From Haloarchaeobius amylolyticus (GTDB lineage Archaea > Halobacteriota > Halobacteria > Halobacteriales > Natrialbaceae): a stretch of DNA of 64,000 nucleotides. A program made the translations under genes and the position numbers. Of the stretch, positions 3,587 through 36,932 are shown piece by piece. The notes under the pieces were generated by a model that did no database searches, was not told the origin of the DNA, and saw only the letters and a list, made by a program, of their open reading frames with translations. Every line of letters starts with the position of its first letter. Within the stretch, counting starts at the first letter, position 1. Location of the stretch: assembly GCF_026616195.1 (NCBI RefSeq), contig NZ_JANHDH010000001.1, positions 310,001 to 374,000 on the forward strand. Direction: 5' to 3'.

Positions 3587-3671
3587 GTTGTGGTAGCCAA
3601 GCCTGGCCCAAGGCGCAGGGTTGCTAACTCTGTGGCGTCAAGCCTCCGGGGTTCGAATCCCCGCCACAACG
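3587..3671 (+). tRNA. tRNA-Ser(GCU)
   Basis: A full cloverleaf can be drawn. Acceptor stem 3587-3593 pairs with 3664-3670 (GTTGTGG/CCACAAC). The D stem is GCC/GGC. Anticodon stem CAGGG/CTCTG encloses loop TTGCTAA with anticodon GCT at 3623-3625. A long variable arm follows, as expected for a class II tRNA, and the T arm carries GGTTCGAATCC. The discriminator base is G3671, as usual for tRNA-Ser. CCA is not encoded. It lies just upstream of the uS13 gene, and co-transcription is likely. Confidence 0.97.
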
Positions 3672-30048: not shown

Positions 30049-32292
30049 CTACTGGTGCCTGTCGCGCTCCGCCATGGCCGCCTCGTCGCCGTAGTGGTCG
30101 ACGAGCTGGCGCAGTCCCTCGCCGACGGCCCGCATCGCCATCCGGGCGGAGTGATAGTCCAGTTCGTCGGCGACGGCGTCGGCGTCGTGGGCCTGCAGGA
30201 CCCGGGCGACGAGGACGCGCTCGTGCTCGGCGTCGAGGGCGGGCCCACTCCCGGTCGGATCCACGAGGTGCTTCACGACGAGGTCGCGGAACGGCCCGGG
30301 TGCCACGTCGTAGAGGCCGGGGCCGTAAGCGGTCCCGGCGACCGCGCGCCACGCCAGCTCGTCGAGGGAGAGCGACACGTCGGCGTCGCAGGCCGCCAGC
30401 GCGGCACGGACCTCGTCCGGGTCCATGTCGCGCAGGGCGTCGGTGAGGACGCCGCCGATGCGGCGGGCGAACCAGTCGGCCTGCCGGTCGTGGAGGGCCT
30501 CGCCGGCGGGCGAACACGGCGAGAGCATCACGGCGGAGTACTCCCCGCTCACGTCGTTCCGGGTGGTCGAGAGGTGGACCGTGTGGTAGTCGTTCGCGTC
30601 CCAGAACCGGAGCAGGTCGGGGGTCGCCCCGTAGCCGACCCCGAGCCAGTCCACGTCGTCGGCGAACTCCTCGCGGATGCACGAGAGCAGGTGCGAGCCG
30701 AGGCCGCGCTCTCTGGCGGCGTGGTGGGTCGCGATGCGGACGACGCGCTCGCCGACCGGGCCGGCGGCGGCCTCGTCGCGCAACTGGCTCGTCAGCACGT
30801 CGGGTATCATGTTCCCGTTGATGCGCCCGCCCTCGTAGATGCGTTCGCGGGTCTGCTCGTCGAGGCCGCCCTCGCGGGCCAGCAGGGCGACGCTGACGAC
30901 GTGGCCGTCGTGGGTCAGCGTCCGCACCGAGAGGTTCGGGGCGTCGAGCAGCCGGGCGAGGTCGTCGGGCTGGGTCTGGTAGTGCGCGAGGACGAGCAGG
31001 CCGAAGGTCTCCCGGAGGCGCTGGGGGTCGGCGAGCAGGTCCTCGGGCGTGGGGCGGCCGTACTCGACCGAGTCGACCGTGGCGTCCGCGACGAGTTCGT
31101 CGACCGGGGGCCGGGCGTCCAGCCCGAGGGCGTTGAACGACCAGACCTCGACCGGGTCGCCCGCCGCGTACCGGATGGGCGTCGCCAGCCGGTTCTCGCG
31201 GACCTCGTGGGCGCTCTCGTCGAGGTGGGCCCGGAACCGCACCGAGAAGCCCCGGCCGGCGCCCTCGTAGCCGTGGATGGTCGAGGCGTAGGCCACCCGG
31301 TCGGCCGCGAGGGTCTCGTCCAGCAGCCGGACCGAGATGGCCGCGGCCTCGTCGACGACGAGGAGGTCCGGCTCGGTGGCCTCTGCGGCGGCTTCCGGCG
31401 GCGGTTCGTACCTGACCTCGCCGCCGGTCGTCGTCACGAGGTGGGTGTTCTCGTCGGGATGGTCGCCGGCCACGCCCAGCGTCTCGAACAGCTCTCTCGC
31501 GCGGTCGAACGCCTCCGCCGCGTTCCGGTAGCTCGGGGCCGTCACGAGCACGTCCTGTCCCTCGGCGGCGAACGCGCCGGCCGCGATGCCGGCCGCACTG
31601 GACTTCCCGCGGCCGCGGTCGGCCTCCAGGACGAGTGCCCGGCACGGCTCGCGCAGGAACTCGAAGTCGTGGACGGCCTCGACCTGGTCGGCGGTCCGGC
31701 AGGCGTCGTACGCCGCCTCCGGGAACTCGAACTGCGCGGGGTGTGGCACCGGCGGGTCGAGTCGGCGCGGGGCCGGGTGGGTCGACCCGTCGGCCTCGAC
31801 GGTGTCAGCATCCACGTCGTAGATTGCGATGCCGCGATGCGCCCGCAGCGTCTCCACGAACCGCTCCCGGAAGTGCCCGGTCACGTCCTCGACCGTGAAC
31901 GGCAGGACGGCCATCCCGGCGTCGAAGTCGTCGCGCCGGGTCGGCCACTCGTCGAGGGGCGGCGCGAGGAGGACGAGCAGGCCGCCGCCGTCGACCGCGC
32001 CGACCACCTGCCCGAGGGTGTTCGGGCGCAACTGGTCGTGGGCGTCGACGACGATGCACTCGTGGGTGGTGCCGAGGATGGACCCCGCCTGCCGGGGGCC
32101 GACCTGTTCGCACCGGAGGAAGTCACGCTCGCTCACCAGCGCGGTCGCCGTGATGGGGACCGAGAGCGCGTCGAGGACCTGCCGGGCGGTCGCCTCGCAG
32201 CGGTCGCGACTACCTGTCAACACGAGTACCCGTCGCTCGTTCACCGACCGGGCCTCGTCTCGCAACCCGGTCGCAACCTCGGCTGCGTCCAT
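30049..32292 (-). CDS. tmcA: tRNA(Met) cytidine acetyltransferase TmcA
   Basis: A 747-residue enzyme that acetylates cytidine in RNA (C34 of elongator tRNA-Met in bacteria; wider targets in archaea) using acetyl-CoA and ATP. In order: N-terminal DUF1726-like domain; helicase-like module with Walker A EADRGRGKSSAAG near residue 205 and the Asp-Glu box LLVVDEAAAI; a GNAT domain (IATHHAARERGLGSHLL) near 520; and a C-terminal tRNA-binding region. The start at 32292 (MDAAEVATGLRDEARSVNER) is preferred over longer upstream starts. Monocistronic; divergent from the next gene. Confidence 0.93.
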   Translation of the reverse strand: MDAAEVATGLRDEARSVNERRVLVLTGSRDRCEATARQVLDALSVPITATALVSERDFLRCEQVGPRQAGSILGTTHECIVVDAHDQLRPNTLGQVVGAVDGGGLLVLLAPPLDEWPTRRDDFDAGMAVLPFTVEDVTGHFRERFVETLRAHRGIAIYDVDADTVEADGSTHPAPRRLDPPVPHPAQFEFPEAAYDACRTADQVEAVHDFEFLREPCRALVLEADRGRGKSSAAGIAAGAFAAEGQDVLVTAPSYRNAAEAFDRARELFETLGVAGDHPDENTHLVTTTGGEVRYEPPPEAAAEATEPDLLVVDEAAAISVRLLDETLAADRVAYASTIHGYEGAGRGFSVRFRAHLDESAHEVRENRLATPIRYAAGDPVEVWSFNALGLDARPPVDELVADATVDSVEYGRPTPEDLLADPQRLRETFGLLVLAHYQTQPDDLARLLDAPNLSVRTLTHDGHVVSVALLAREGGLDEQTRERIYEGGRINGNMIPDVLTSQLRDEAAAGPVGERVVRIATHHAARERGLGSHLLSCIREEFADDVDWLGVGYGATPDLLRFWDANDYHTVHLSTTRNDVSGEYSAVMLSPCSPAGEALHDRQADWFARRIGGVLTDALRDMDPDEVRAALAACDADVSLSLDELAWRAVAGTAYGPGLYDVAPGPFRDLVVKHLVDPTGSGPALDAEHERVLVARVLQAHDADAVADELDYHSARMAMRAVGEGLRQLVDHYGDEAAMAERDRHQ

Positions 32293-33002: not shown

Positions 33003-33011
33003 CCTTATAAG
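33003..33011 (+). promoter_or_regulatory. TATA box of the eL8 operon
   Basis: CCTTATAAG is a near-ideal archaeal TATA element. It predicts transcription from about 33030, leaving a leader of some 140 nt before the eL8 ATG at 33171. That is unusually long for this organism. Confidence 0.65.
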
Positions 33012-33037
33012 GGGTGGCCCAGTACAAACGAGATACG

Positions 33038-33155
33038 CCCTACGCGGGGTTGATGATGCTCCTAGCCGCACAGGATTCCGGCCGCCGACTACCCAGCCGG
33101 TGGTCAGTGGGGATTCGGCCCCACGACGGCAGGGGAGCGCGAGCCCACGCGTGGG
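33038..33155 (+). ncRNA. Structured leader or small RNA upstream of eL8
   Basis: Pairing by eye gives a compact three-way junction: outer stem GCCG (33081-33084) with CGGC (33127-33130), arm 1 33087-33093 with 33099-33105, and arm 2 GTGGGG (33107-33112) with CCCCAC (33119-33124). Before it, GCGG (33044-33047) pairs with CCGC (33066-33069) and encloses TGATGA (33051-33056), the core of a box C-like kink-turn motif. After it, CCCACGCGTGGG (33144-33155) is self-complementary. It could be an autoregulatory site for eL8, which binds kink-turns, or an embedded guide RNA. Confidence 0.45.
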
Positions 33156-33170
33156 AGTAGGTGAACAACC

Positions 33171-33530
33171 ATGCCAGTCTACGTCAACAAAGAGATCCCA
33201 GCCGACCTCCAAGAGGACGCCCTCGAGGCCCTCGAGGTCGCACGAGACACAGGTAGCGTAAAGAAAGGAACCAACGAGACCACGAAGGCCGTCGAGCGCG
33301 GCAACGCCTCGATCGTCTACGTCGCCGAGGACGTCTCCCCCGAGGAGATCGTCATGCACCTCCCCGAACTCGCCAGTGAGAAGGGTATCCCGGTCGTCTT
33401 CATCGAGACGCAGGACGACGTCGGGCACGCCGCCGGCCTCGAGGTCGGCAGCGCGGCCGCGGCCATCGTCGACGCTGGTGACGCCTCGAGCGACGTCGAG
33501 GACATCGCCGGCAAGGTCGAGGACCTGTAG
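33171..33530 (+). CDS. rpl7ae: 50S ribosomal protein eL8 (L7Ae), kink-turn binding protein
   Basis: A 119-residue protein of the large subunit and, in archaea, a component of C/D and H/ACA guide RNPs and RNase P. The family core includes [56 protein letters not shown]. It heads the operon eL8-eS28-eL24-Ndk. The long structured leader before it suggests regulation at RNA level. Confidence 0.96.
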
Positions 33531-33539
33531 AGGTAATCC

Positions 33540-33764
33540 ATGAGTGCCGAAGAGTCTACAGACGGCTCCACCTCCGCGGAAGTCATCGAGATCGTCGGTA
33601 AGACCGGCATGCACGGCGAAGCCATGCAGGTCAAGTGCCGCATCCGCGAGGGGGAAAACCAGGGTCGCATCATCACGCGAAACTGCCTCGGCCCCGTTCG
33701 CGAGGGTGACGTCTTGCAGCTGCGCGAGACTGCCCGCGAGGCCGACTCCATCGGAGGACAATAA
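33540..33764 (+). CDS. rps28e: 30S ribosomal protein eS28
   Basis: A 74-residue small-subunit protein. It carries [23 protein letters not shown] and the conserved end [26 protein letters not shown]. It begins 9 nt behind eL8, and its stop shares one base with the eL24 start. Confidence 0.95.
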
Positions 33765-33973
33765 TGGTTCGAACCCGCGACTGTGAGTACTGCGGTGACG
33801 AGATCGTTCCCGGGACGGGCACGATGTTCGTCCACGTGGACGGCACGACCGTCCACTACTGCTCCGCGAAGTGCGAGAAGAACGCGGACCTGGGTCGCGA
33901 GCCCCGTGACCTGGAGTGGACGAAAGAAGGCGGTGCCCCCCAGGCAGCAACCGAGGAGGACACTGAAGAATGA
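33764..33973 (+). CDS. rpl24e: 50S ribosomal protein eL24
   Basis: A 69-residue zinc-binding ribosomal protein. Four cysteines are in family positions: CEYCGDEI near residues 7-10 and YCSAKCEKN near 33-37. The start shares a base with the eS28 stop (TAATG); the stop overlaps the ndk start by 4 nt. Confidence 0.94.
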
Positions 33974-34437
33974 GCGACGACCACGAGCGCACGTTCGTCA
34001 TGGTCAAGCCCGACGGCGTCCAGCGCGGCCTCATCGGCGAAATCATCGCCCGCTTCGAGGACCGCGGCCTGAAACTGGTCGGCGCGAAGTTCATGCAGAT
34101 CGACCAGGACCTCGCCGAGGAGCACTACGGCGAGCACGAGGGCAAGCCGTTCTTCGACGGCCTCGTCGACTTCATCACCTCGGGTCCCGTGATGGCGATG
34201 GTCTGGGAGGGCCAGGACGCCATCCGGCAGGTCCGCAACATGATGGGCGAGACCGACCCGGCCGAGTCCGCGCCGGGCACCATCCGCGGTGACTTCGGTC
34301 TCGACCTCGGTCGGAACGTCATCCACGGCTCCGACCACGAGGACCCCGGCTCGAACGAGCGCGAGATCGACCTCTTCTTCGACGAAGAGGAGCTCGTCGA
34401 CTACGAGCAGGTCGACGCGACCTGGCTCTACGAATAA
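33970..34437 (+). CDS. ndk: Nucleoside diphosphate kinase
   Basis: A 155-residue enzyme that moves the terminal phosphate of ATP to other nucleoside diphosphates through a phospho-histidine. The N-terminal [22 protein letters not shown], the RNMMGETDP loop and the catalytic histidine in [22 protein letters not shown] are all present. It ends the eL8 operon; a T-rich stretch after the stop could terminate transcription. Confidence 0.96.
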
Positions 34438-34532: not shown

Positions 34533-36932
34533 ATGAACACAGAGACCACCCGCCGGGCCCTCCTTACCGCGGTCCTCGGGGCGGGTATCGGGGGGATGAC
34601 ACTCACGGAGGCGCGGAGCTACCTCGACCGGTTCGCGCCGGGGTCGGGGTCGGTGTGGGGCGCCGCGGAGTCGGGAGCCGACGGGACCGTCGAGAGCCCC
34701 TACGGACCGGCGACGGTCCGGTACGACGACGACCACGTCCCGCACATCGAGGCGGATTCGGAGGCGGCGGCGTACTTCGCGGTCGGCTACTGCCACGGGG
34801 CGGACCGGCTGTTCCAGATGGACCTCTACCGGCGCCTGATGGAGGGGCGGCTCGCGGCGGTGTTCGGCGACCGGGCGGTCGATTCGGACGTGTTCCACCG
34901 CCAGCTGGACTTCGCCGCGGCCGCCGAGGCGACGTGGGAGCGCACGAAGGGCTCGGAGACGGGCGACATGGTCGAGGCGTACGTCGAGGGGGTGAACGCC
35001 GCCCGCGAGCAGGAGACGAAACCGCTCGAATACCGGCTGCTCTCCTACGAGCAGGAGGCGTGGACGCCGGCCGCCTCGCTCGTCATCTCGAAGCAGATAT
35101 CGTGGGGGCTGACGGGGTCGTTCCGGACACTCCGGAAGGCGCTGGCCCGGGAGCGACTGGGTCAGGAGACGACCGAGACGCTGTACCCGCGGCTCATGGG
35201 CCACGACACGCCCATCATCCGGGGTGGAGAGCCGCCGGAATCGACTCGCCACGAGGACGCGGCGGTCCCGGACCCCGGCATGCTCTCCTGGCTGGCCGAG
35301 TTCGAGACCGAGCCGGGCATCGGGTCGAACTCGTGGGTCGTCTCCGGCGAGCACACCGACTCGGGCGACCCGATCGTCGCCAACGACCCGCACCTGAACC
35401 TGACCGTCCCGCCGGTGTGGTACGAACAGCACGTCGTCGGCCCGGACCCGCTGGACGTCCGCGGCGTCTGCTTCCCGGGCGTGCCCTTCGTCATCATCGG
35501 CCAGAACCACGCCGGGGCGTGGGGCTTCACGAACACCGGCGCGGACGTCGTCGACTTCTACACGTACGACTCCCCGACCGGGGACGCCTACGACTACGGC
35601 GACGAGAAACGACAGTTCCAGAGCCGGACGGAGACGGTCGCGGTCGCCGACGGCGAGGACCGCGAGGTGACGGTCAAGCGGTCGGTCCACGGCGCGGTCC
35701 TCTCGCAGTTCCCCGACGGGGACGACCTGCGCGTCGCCGACGAACTCGGGGTCGCCTGGACCGGGCTCTCGGCGACCCGGACCGTCGACGCGGTCCGGCA
35801 GTTGAACCTCGCCGACGGCCTGGAGGAGGCGAAGGCGGCCATCCGACTGTTCGACGAACCGACGCAGAACTTCGTCTACGCCGACCGCGACGGTAACACC
35901 TACTACTGGGTCACGGGCCAGATTCCCATCCGGACGACCGACGGCGAGGTCGTCCAGGGCACGCGGGTCTTCGACGGCTCGGCGAAGGAGGGCGAGTGGG
36001 GCGATGGCTACACGCCCTACGGCGAGTCCTCGTGGGACGGGTTCGTCCCCTTCGACGAGAAGCCGGGCGTCGAGAACCCCGACTACCTCGCCACCGCGAA
36101 CCAGCGCCTCACGAACGACCCCGAACACTACATCTCGGCGGGGTACGCGCCGCCATTCCGCGGAGCACGTATCTACGACCTGCTTGACGAGCGCGCCGCG
36201 AGCGACCAGCCGATGGACGCCGAGTTCCTGCGTGAGGTCCAGCTCGACACCCAGGACCCGCGGTTCACCCTGTTCCGGCCGGTTCTGGAGGCGGCGGCAG
36301 AGACGGACGACTCGCCGACGACCGACCTCCCGTACGACCCCTTCGAGACCGTGCTCGACTGGGACGGCGAGATGCGCCCGGACTCCGTCGGGGCGCTGGT
36401 GTTCGAACGCTGGCTCCGGGCCTACCGCGAGCAGGTGTTCGAGGGGCGATTCGCCGACGCCGGGCTGCCGGAGGACTTCGGGAAGCCGAACGACTGGGTG
36501 CTCGGGACGCTGGCCACCGGGGGCGACTGGTTCGAGGAGGGCCCCGACCCGGTGACACACGCCATCGACGCGATGGACGAGGCCACGGCCGAGATCGCCG
36601 ACGAGGGCTGGGAAGACTACGGGGACTGGAATCGCGTCCGGTTCACCCACCCCTTCGACCAGGACTTCCTCAACTACGACGAACTGCGGACCGCCGGCTC
36701 GCCCGGTACCGTCCGCAACTTCCACAGCGAGGGCTCCACGGGCGCGAGCTGGCGGATGGTCGCGACCTTCGACGGGGGCTCGCAGGCGGTCCTCCCGGGT
36801 GGCAACTCGGGGGACTACTTCTCCGACAGCTACGCCGACCAGCTCGCGGACTGGGCGAACGGTCGGTACAAGCCGATGGACCGGTCGCTCCCCGACGGCA
36901 CCGACCTGCGGTTCGAGGAGGTGTCGCGATGA
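34533..36932 (+). CDS. Penicillin acylase family protein (Ntn hydrolase), copy 1
   Basis: A 799-residue precursor of the N-terminal nucleophile amidase family, which is cut by itself into alpha and beta chains. The start at 34533 gives an N-terminal Arg-Arg signal-like segment (TTRRALLTAVLGAGIGG). The alpha part includes the FAVGYCHGADRLFQMDLYRRLMEGRLA signature. The predicted beta-chain nucleophile is S265 in PGIGSNSWVVSG; NHAGAWGFTNTGADVVDFY holds the conserved Asn region. Substrates in the family include acyl-homoserine lactones and N-acyl amino acids; none can be assigned. It overlaps the next small membrane-protein gene (ATGA). Confidence 0.88.
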   Translation: MNTETTRRALLTAVLGAGIGGMTLTEARSYLDRFAPGSGSVWGAAESGADGTVESPYGPATVRYDDDHVPHIEADSEAAAYFAVGYCHGADRLFQMDLYRRLMEGRLAAVFGDRAVDSDVFHRQLDFAAAAEATWERTKGSETGDMVEAYVEGVNAAREQETKPLEYRLLSYEQEAWTPAASLVISKQISWGLTGSFRTLRKALARERLGQETTETLYPRLMGHDTPIIRGGEPPESTRHEDAAVPDPGMLSWLAEFETEPGIGSNSWVVSGEHTDSGDPIVANDPHLNLTVPPVWYEQHVVGPDPLDVRGVCFPGVPFVIIGQNHAGAWGFTNTGADVVDFYTYDSPTGDAYDYGDEKRQFQSRTETVAVADGEDREVTVKRSVHGAVLSQFPDGDDLRVADELGVAWTGLSATRTVDAVRQLNLADGLEEAKAAIRLFDEPTQNFVYADRDGNTYYWVTGQIPIRTTDGEVVQGTRVFDGSAKEGEWGDGYTPYGESSWDGFVPFDEKPGVENPDYLATANQRLTNDPEHYISAGYAPPFRGARIYDLLDERAASDQPMDAEFLREVQLDTQDPRFTLFRPVLEAAAETDDSPTTDLPYDPFETVLDWDGEMRPDSVGALVFERWLRAYREQVFEGRFADAGLPEDFGKPNDWVLGTLATGGDWFEEGPDPVTHAIDAMDEATAEIADEGWEDYGDWNRVRFTHPFDQDFLNYDELRTAGSPGTVRNFHSEGSTGASWRMVATFDGGSQAVLPGGNSGDYFSDSYADQLADWANGRYKPMDRSLPDGTDLRFEEVSR

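Follow-up and report, generated by a model that had tools for sequence, protein, structure and literature searches.

The gene for ribosomal protein eL8 (L7Ae) in Haloarchaeobius amylolyticus raises the question of why its start codon is preceded by a long leader in a group of archaea with mostly leaderless transcripts (72% of the protein-coding transcripts in H. volcanii; PMC4983044), and of whether this leader, as an original prediction from the sequence proposed, is an autoregulatory kink-turn (k-turn) site for eL8 itself. In the 64,000-nt window, by which we mean the whole stretch of DNA analyzed, eL8, the presumed ligand, is encoded at 33171-33530 (Pfam PF01248, E 1.5e-23; here and below on the forward strand unless noted). 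The genes that follow were identified by Pfam as eS28 (33540-33764), eL24 (33764-33973), and ndk (33970-34437), and the short or overlapping junctions between them mark eL8-eS28-eL24-ndk as a presumed operon. Upstream of the eL8 leader are tmcA and a gene for a SnoaL-like protein. TmcA, a tRNA(Met) cytidine acetyltransferase by Pfam, is encoded at 30049-32286 on the reverse strand and adjoins the eL8 operon; a predicted acetyltransferase (HVO_2736) and L7Ae (HVO_2737) of H. volcanii have adjacent locus numbers, too (PMC2584109). Downstream of ndk lies a gene for a penicillin-amidase family protein (34533-36929; Pfam E 1e-183), and the window also contains an 85-nt tRNA gene at 3587-3671 (Rfam, 50.7 bits).

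Confirming the predicted promoter, a TATA box with the sequence TTATAA lies at 33005-33010, and in 68 of the 70 leaders that we compared, a TATA-like box precedes the first conserved base by 25 to 28 nt. This spacing suggests that the RNA probably begins at a conserved (G)UACA (33033-33037), with transcription starting near 33033 and a leader of ~138 nt up to the eL8 ATG (33171), in agreement with the ~140 nt originally estimated. The (G)UACA motif is near-invariant across the class despite its position outside the helices described below, with A in 70/70 and C in 69/70 leaders at alignment columns 3 and 4.

The DNA upstream of eL8 homologues consists of near-identical strands flanking a variable middle, CCUACGCGGGGUUGAUGAUGCUCCUAGCC..CACAGGA ... 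GGCAGGGGAGCGCGAGCCCRCGYGUAGGAG, and the 22-mer GGGGTTGATGATGCTCCTAGCC was present with at most 3 mismatches in 189 of 292 genomes of the class Halobacteria, almost always as a single copy. A covariance model (R1) built from 26 sequences over the window element at 33033-33173 matched upstream of eL8 in 284 of the 292 sampled genomes of the class, nearly always in one copy, and gave no match under strict filters in 164 sampled genomes of the same phylum outside Halobacteria. The eight genomes missed by R1 included three copies in which the RNA is present with long apical inserts (G035, G206, and G317; L081), two diverged versions of the leader in family f4 (L190 and L191), and three basal species in families f5 and f11 that have a k-turn hairpin of ~30 nt in place of the long leader (L192-L194). 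The element is unique in its own genome apart from a match at E 1.5, which we took as chance, as we did a weak second match in another genome (G124, E 0.0098). Its location is constrained too, with the eL8 start following the element at 100 of 100 loci in one set and 19 of 20 in a second; every strong match that was fetched preceded an eL8 start codon, with a weak match of 21.9 bits (L161) as the lone exception. In Rfam, the element had no match at the gathering score or at E values up to 5.

Consistent with the claim that the leader is strongly folded, the predicted structure of 33030-33170 reached -69.3 kcal/mol (z -4.05), with none of 200 shuffles as low, and that of 33039-33155 reached a z of -3.83. 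RNAalifold, supplied with 26 sequences and no structure, returned four helices that we term P1, C-helix, P2, and P3. In the MAFFT alignment of these 26 sequences, 98.7% of cells paired and nine pairs had two-sided changes, amounting to 31 cells compared to 8.7 in shuffles. Alignment of 70 leaders to R1 yielded 96.5% paired cells, two-sided compensatory changes at 15 of 20 core pairs, and 108 doubly changed cells compared to 21.4 (SD, 3.9) in shuffles; being made to R1, this alignment leans toward the model, and the unfitted MAFFT alignment agrees with it. As a control, sliding the pairing partners by 1 to 3 columns in the 70 leaders left only 28 to 49% of cells paired. On this comparative evidence, we consider the element to be a real, conserved structured RNA that occurs class-wide in haloarchaea, with a conserved core that is one long hairpin composed of P1, an L7Ae-type k-turn, P2, and P3.

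Within this hairpin, P1 (33039-33045/33149-33155) displayed compensatory changes in most pairs, and the inner C-helix (33047-33050/33143-33146) displayed G-C/C-G/A-U covariation at two pairs, so that the covarying 3' strands of both helices together span 33143-33155. Covariation was also observed for P2 (33058-33063/33133-33138), which serves as the NC-helix, and P3 (33065-33067/33128-33130) was paired in 98.1% of cells with two-sided changes at two pairs. These helices differ from those first proposed. The bases of a stem at 33044-33047/33066-33069, said to enclose TGATGA, instead pair with 33146-33150 and 33125-33129 by both covariation and the minimum free energy (MFE) structure, and P3 replaces an outer stem at 33081-33084/33127-33130. 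Alignment of the leaders for compensatory changes, which the original prediction had suggested as a check, bears out P1, the C-helix, P2, and P3, with which its own local and outer stems compete.

The TGATGA itself is present as described, at 33051-33056, and forms the bulge strand of the putative k-turn, with a partner GA located ~86 nt downstream at 33141-33142. The bulge (b) strand (33051-33057) contains the loop UGAU followed by G33055 (1b), A33056 (2b), and U33057 (3b), with no variation at L3 U, 1b G, or 2b A among the 70 leaders. The nonbulge (n) strand, GCGA (33139-33142), provides G33141 (2n) and A33142 (1n), the latter invariant in 70/70 leaders and the former G in 62 leaders and A in 8, with A replacing G at 2n in family f2. 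Between the C-helix and P2, the 5' strand thus reads U-[UGAU]-GA-U and the 3' strand GC-GA-G, and the C-helix ends in the -1b/-1n pair (U33050-G33143), which is U-G in 68/70 leaders. The loop length is 4 nt in the majority of leaders; several lineages have 3-nt loops (CAU, UGU, or CGU), which support our choice of k-turn register. Most leaders have one additional n-strand base opposite 3b, and several families have CUGA (box D) as the 3' strand. An invariant core between covarying helices conforms to the k-turn arrangement of a C-helix, a 3-nt loop, presumably sheared tandem G.A/A.G pairs, and an NC-helix. Ion-driven folding of k-turns is favored by C at 3b or G at 3n (PMC6298567). By these rules, most of the leaders, having U at 3b, should need protein to kink, with the extra base opposite 3b lowering the certainty of this requirement.

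The Shine-Dalgarno (SD) sequence AGGUGA (33159-33164) begins 3 nt beyond the end of P1 in the window and overlaps the P1 end in many relatives. The best anti-SD complement in the relatives' leaders starts anywhere from 3 nt inside the P1 end to 4 nt outside it, which locates the ribosome binding site either at the k-turn hairpin or inside it.

In outgroup archaea and basal members of the haloarchaea, short hairpins sharing this k-turn design lie immediately 5' of the SD, as in L194 (CGU-AAU-GA-CGCGC..GCGCG-GA-ACG-AGG) and L196 (GAAU-GAU-GA-U-GGGGCAGC..GCUGCCCC-U-GA). The hairpins of L192-L194 are minimal, with a length of ~30 nt and a position ~60 nt upstream of eL8. In a scan for such hairpins that left out L199 and used only mononucleotide composition shuffles as the control, 7 of 11 usable leaders beat nearly all shuffles (p about 0.015 or less), and L195, L198, L200, and L202 fell short of this level. 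We infer from these sequences that the long leader is an expansion of an older element, in which the outer helix grew from 1 to 3 bp to 11 bp, with the minimal hairpin of the f5 and f11 genomes as a possible intermediate or ancestral state. The suggested path would lead from a ~30-nt k-turn hairpin, as in other archaea and the basal haloarchaea, to a leader of 75 to 200 nt.

These features bear on whether the leader could act constitutively as a structured 5' untranslated region that shields the mRNA or holds initiation at a fixed rate, with eL8 binding incidental or absent. A very stable predicted hairpin that begins almost at the 5' end of the RNA would suit such a role, but stability would not require the k-turn nucleotides to be invariant while the helices around them covary freely, the downstream gene encodes a k-turn binder, and the homologous short hairpins elsewhere lack a stabilizing length. 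We consider a constitutive role very unlikely.

Beyond P3, a conserved segment is an unpaired CAGGA (33071-33075) located 5' within the apical loop or junction, present as AGGA or AGGGA in 66/70 leaders, with the CAGGGA form in families f2 and f4. No pairing partner for it was found in the 70 leaders. Pairing of apical AGGA with a CUCCU in the P2 strand was considered and rejected as not general, since AGGGA persists in one f4 group that lacks a matching UCCU. Apart from CAGGA, the apical region varies freely, being 12 to 86 nt long and having two or three predicted hairpins in 33/70 leaders and one in 37/70. Several leaders (L026, L030, L024, L028, and L081) have apical inserts between CAGGA and P3, from tens of nucleotides up to ~100. 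In the window, arm A (33080-33087/33098-33105) and arm B (33107-33112/33119-33124) are present in the MFE structure. The former corresponds to an arm placed previously in a different register (33087-33093/33099-33105), and the latter, which is variable, is as described. A three-way junction is consequently predicted in this species, as the original prediction proposed, but is not part of the conserved structure, since the apex in 37/70 relatives is a lone hairpin or loop, in many cases of 12 to 18 nt. The apical arms are accessory and lie outside the conserved core.

Conservation of CAGGA/CAGGGA that pairing does not explain might suggest that the apical region and this motif read another ligand, either a small molecule or a ribosomal protein such as eS28 or eL24, with the k-turn having an architectural role as in SAM-I riboswitches. 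Given that the remainder of the apical region varies freely and that outgroup leaders retain the k-turn and the SD alone, we regard such a ligand as highly improbable.

A guide RNA (box C/D or H/ACA) that is processed out of the leader and needs L7Ae for assembly, also raised originally, has in its favor the resemblance of UGAUGA, and of CUGA in several relatives, to boxes C and D and the existence of H/ACA hairpins in haloarchaea (PMC2584109), but is nearly discounted by a single C/D-like k-turn that leads into P2 and P3 with no second conserved motif, C'/D' unit, or guides between, by the k-turn being the only large internal loop, by the lack of a pseudouridylation pocket, by loops that vary in both length (12 to 86 nt) and sequence, by a longest complement to 23S rRNA of 8 nt, no more than in shuffles (in a scan limited to 23S rRNA), and by a position fixed directly at the eL8 SD. 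No support for mimicry of rRNA came from the 23S locus, where the sole resemblance, GAGTGCGCGAGCC, is located downstream of the 23S gene and was taken as 5S rRNA and chance.

Class-wide covariation, the invariant k-turn core, the strict location before eL8, the short hairpins elsewhere, and the TATA and SD geometry together support the leader being, with high probability, a cis-acting autoregulatory (feedback) site for eL8/L7Ae, with both eL8 binding and translational repression being steps that we infer. The central idea of the original prediction is retained on the basis of covariation, core, and location, with its anatomy revised to a distant closing strand and arms that are accessory. In the proposed mechanism, transcription would begin near 33033, and the 5' strand at 33039-33067 would pair with 33128-33155 to form a long hairpin with the k-turn in its middle. 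This k-turn would be composed of the C-helix ending at U33050-G33143, the UGAU loop, and the tandem pairs G33055-A33142 and A33056-G33141, followed by P2. When in excess of its free sites in guide RNAs and in 23S rRNA (where the eL8 site is Kt-15), eL8 would bind the leader k-turn, fixing the kink and locking P1, which through its 3' strand borders the SD or overlaps it. The 30S subunit would then be kept off the SD, reducing translation of eL8 and perhaps also of eS28-eL24-ndk.

Some observations count against feedback of the simplest form. With the additional n-strand base opposite 3b and the 4-nt loop, the k-turn of most leaders departs from the simplest type, 2n is A in family f2, and the SD in the window lies 3 nt outside P1. 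Furthermore, the hairpin, in contrast to that of Archaeoglobus fulgidus, is predicted to be very stable when no protein is bound, so switching between folded and unfolded states may not apply. This predicted stability makes bending and occlusion the more likely switch, and raises the question of how a regulator can work with an RNA that has probably folded beforehand in molar salt. A more elaborate and rather doubtful version is a salt-adapted hairpin that is permanently folded and that eL8 bends, bringing the P2/P3 arm across the site of ribosome entry, with CAGGA as a second recognition element for the ribosome or another protein, giving the eL8-eS28-eL24-ndk operon a two-input leader. In its plainer feedback form, the leader would by present evidence be a class-wide riboregulator that is missing from Rfam, in a group with mostly leaderless transcripts.

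The principle of L7Ae autoregulation is known, and the class-wide haloarchaeal variant appears to be new. Feedback of L7Ae on its own leader has been shown experimentally in Sulfolobus by Daume et al. (2017), who proposed such feedback in most archaea and reported high leader conservation in Sulfolobales only (PMC5539422). They proposed a leader k-turn for H. volcanii as well, assayed ~50 bp upstream of its gene against Sulfolobus L7Ae in E. coli, and noted in the legend to their Fig. 5 a Kt-b strand further upstream in their alignment (PMC5539422). The distant bulge strand that we predict for haloarchaea in general fits this legend. In the haloarchaea that we examined, the bulge strand of the k-turn lies beyond a 50-bp upstream fragment of this kind, so the H. 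volcanii experiment is worth repeating with the whole leader.

The leaders of Sulfolobus acidocaldarius and other archaea (PMC5539422) resemble the haloarchaeal leader in having a k-turn in the l7ae 5' untranslated region beside the SD. In contrast, the haloarchaeal k-turn strands are ~86 nt apart, and the hairpin has an 11-bp P1/C-helix, P2, P3, optional arms, and class-wide covariation. In the A. fulgidus l7ae leader, for which Huang et al. (2019) showed folding and proposed SD occlusion as the output (PMC6298567), a GAU-type loop is likewise followed by tandem G:A pairs. The A. fulgidus hairpin is weak, short, and unfolded without L7Ae, whereas for haloarchaea a hairpin stable by itself is predicted. 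Box C/D sRNAs share with it a box-C-like UUGAUGA 5' strand, a closing terminal stem, and, in several relatives, a box-D-like CUGA 3' strand, but the haloarchaeal element has no guide sequences or C'/D' unit, has a long P2/P3, and is part of an mRNA leader. The main text of a 2020 catalogue of ribosomal protein leaders, which includes archaeal leaders for S15, eL15, and L4, does not mention eL8, L7Ae, or k-turns (Eckert and Weinberg; PMC7247131). Like those leaders as presented there, the eL8 leader is a lineage-restricted, covariation-supported structure upstream of a ribosomal protein gene, with the gene being a different one.
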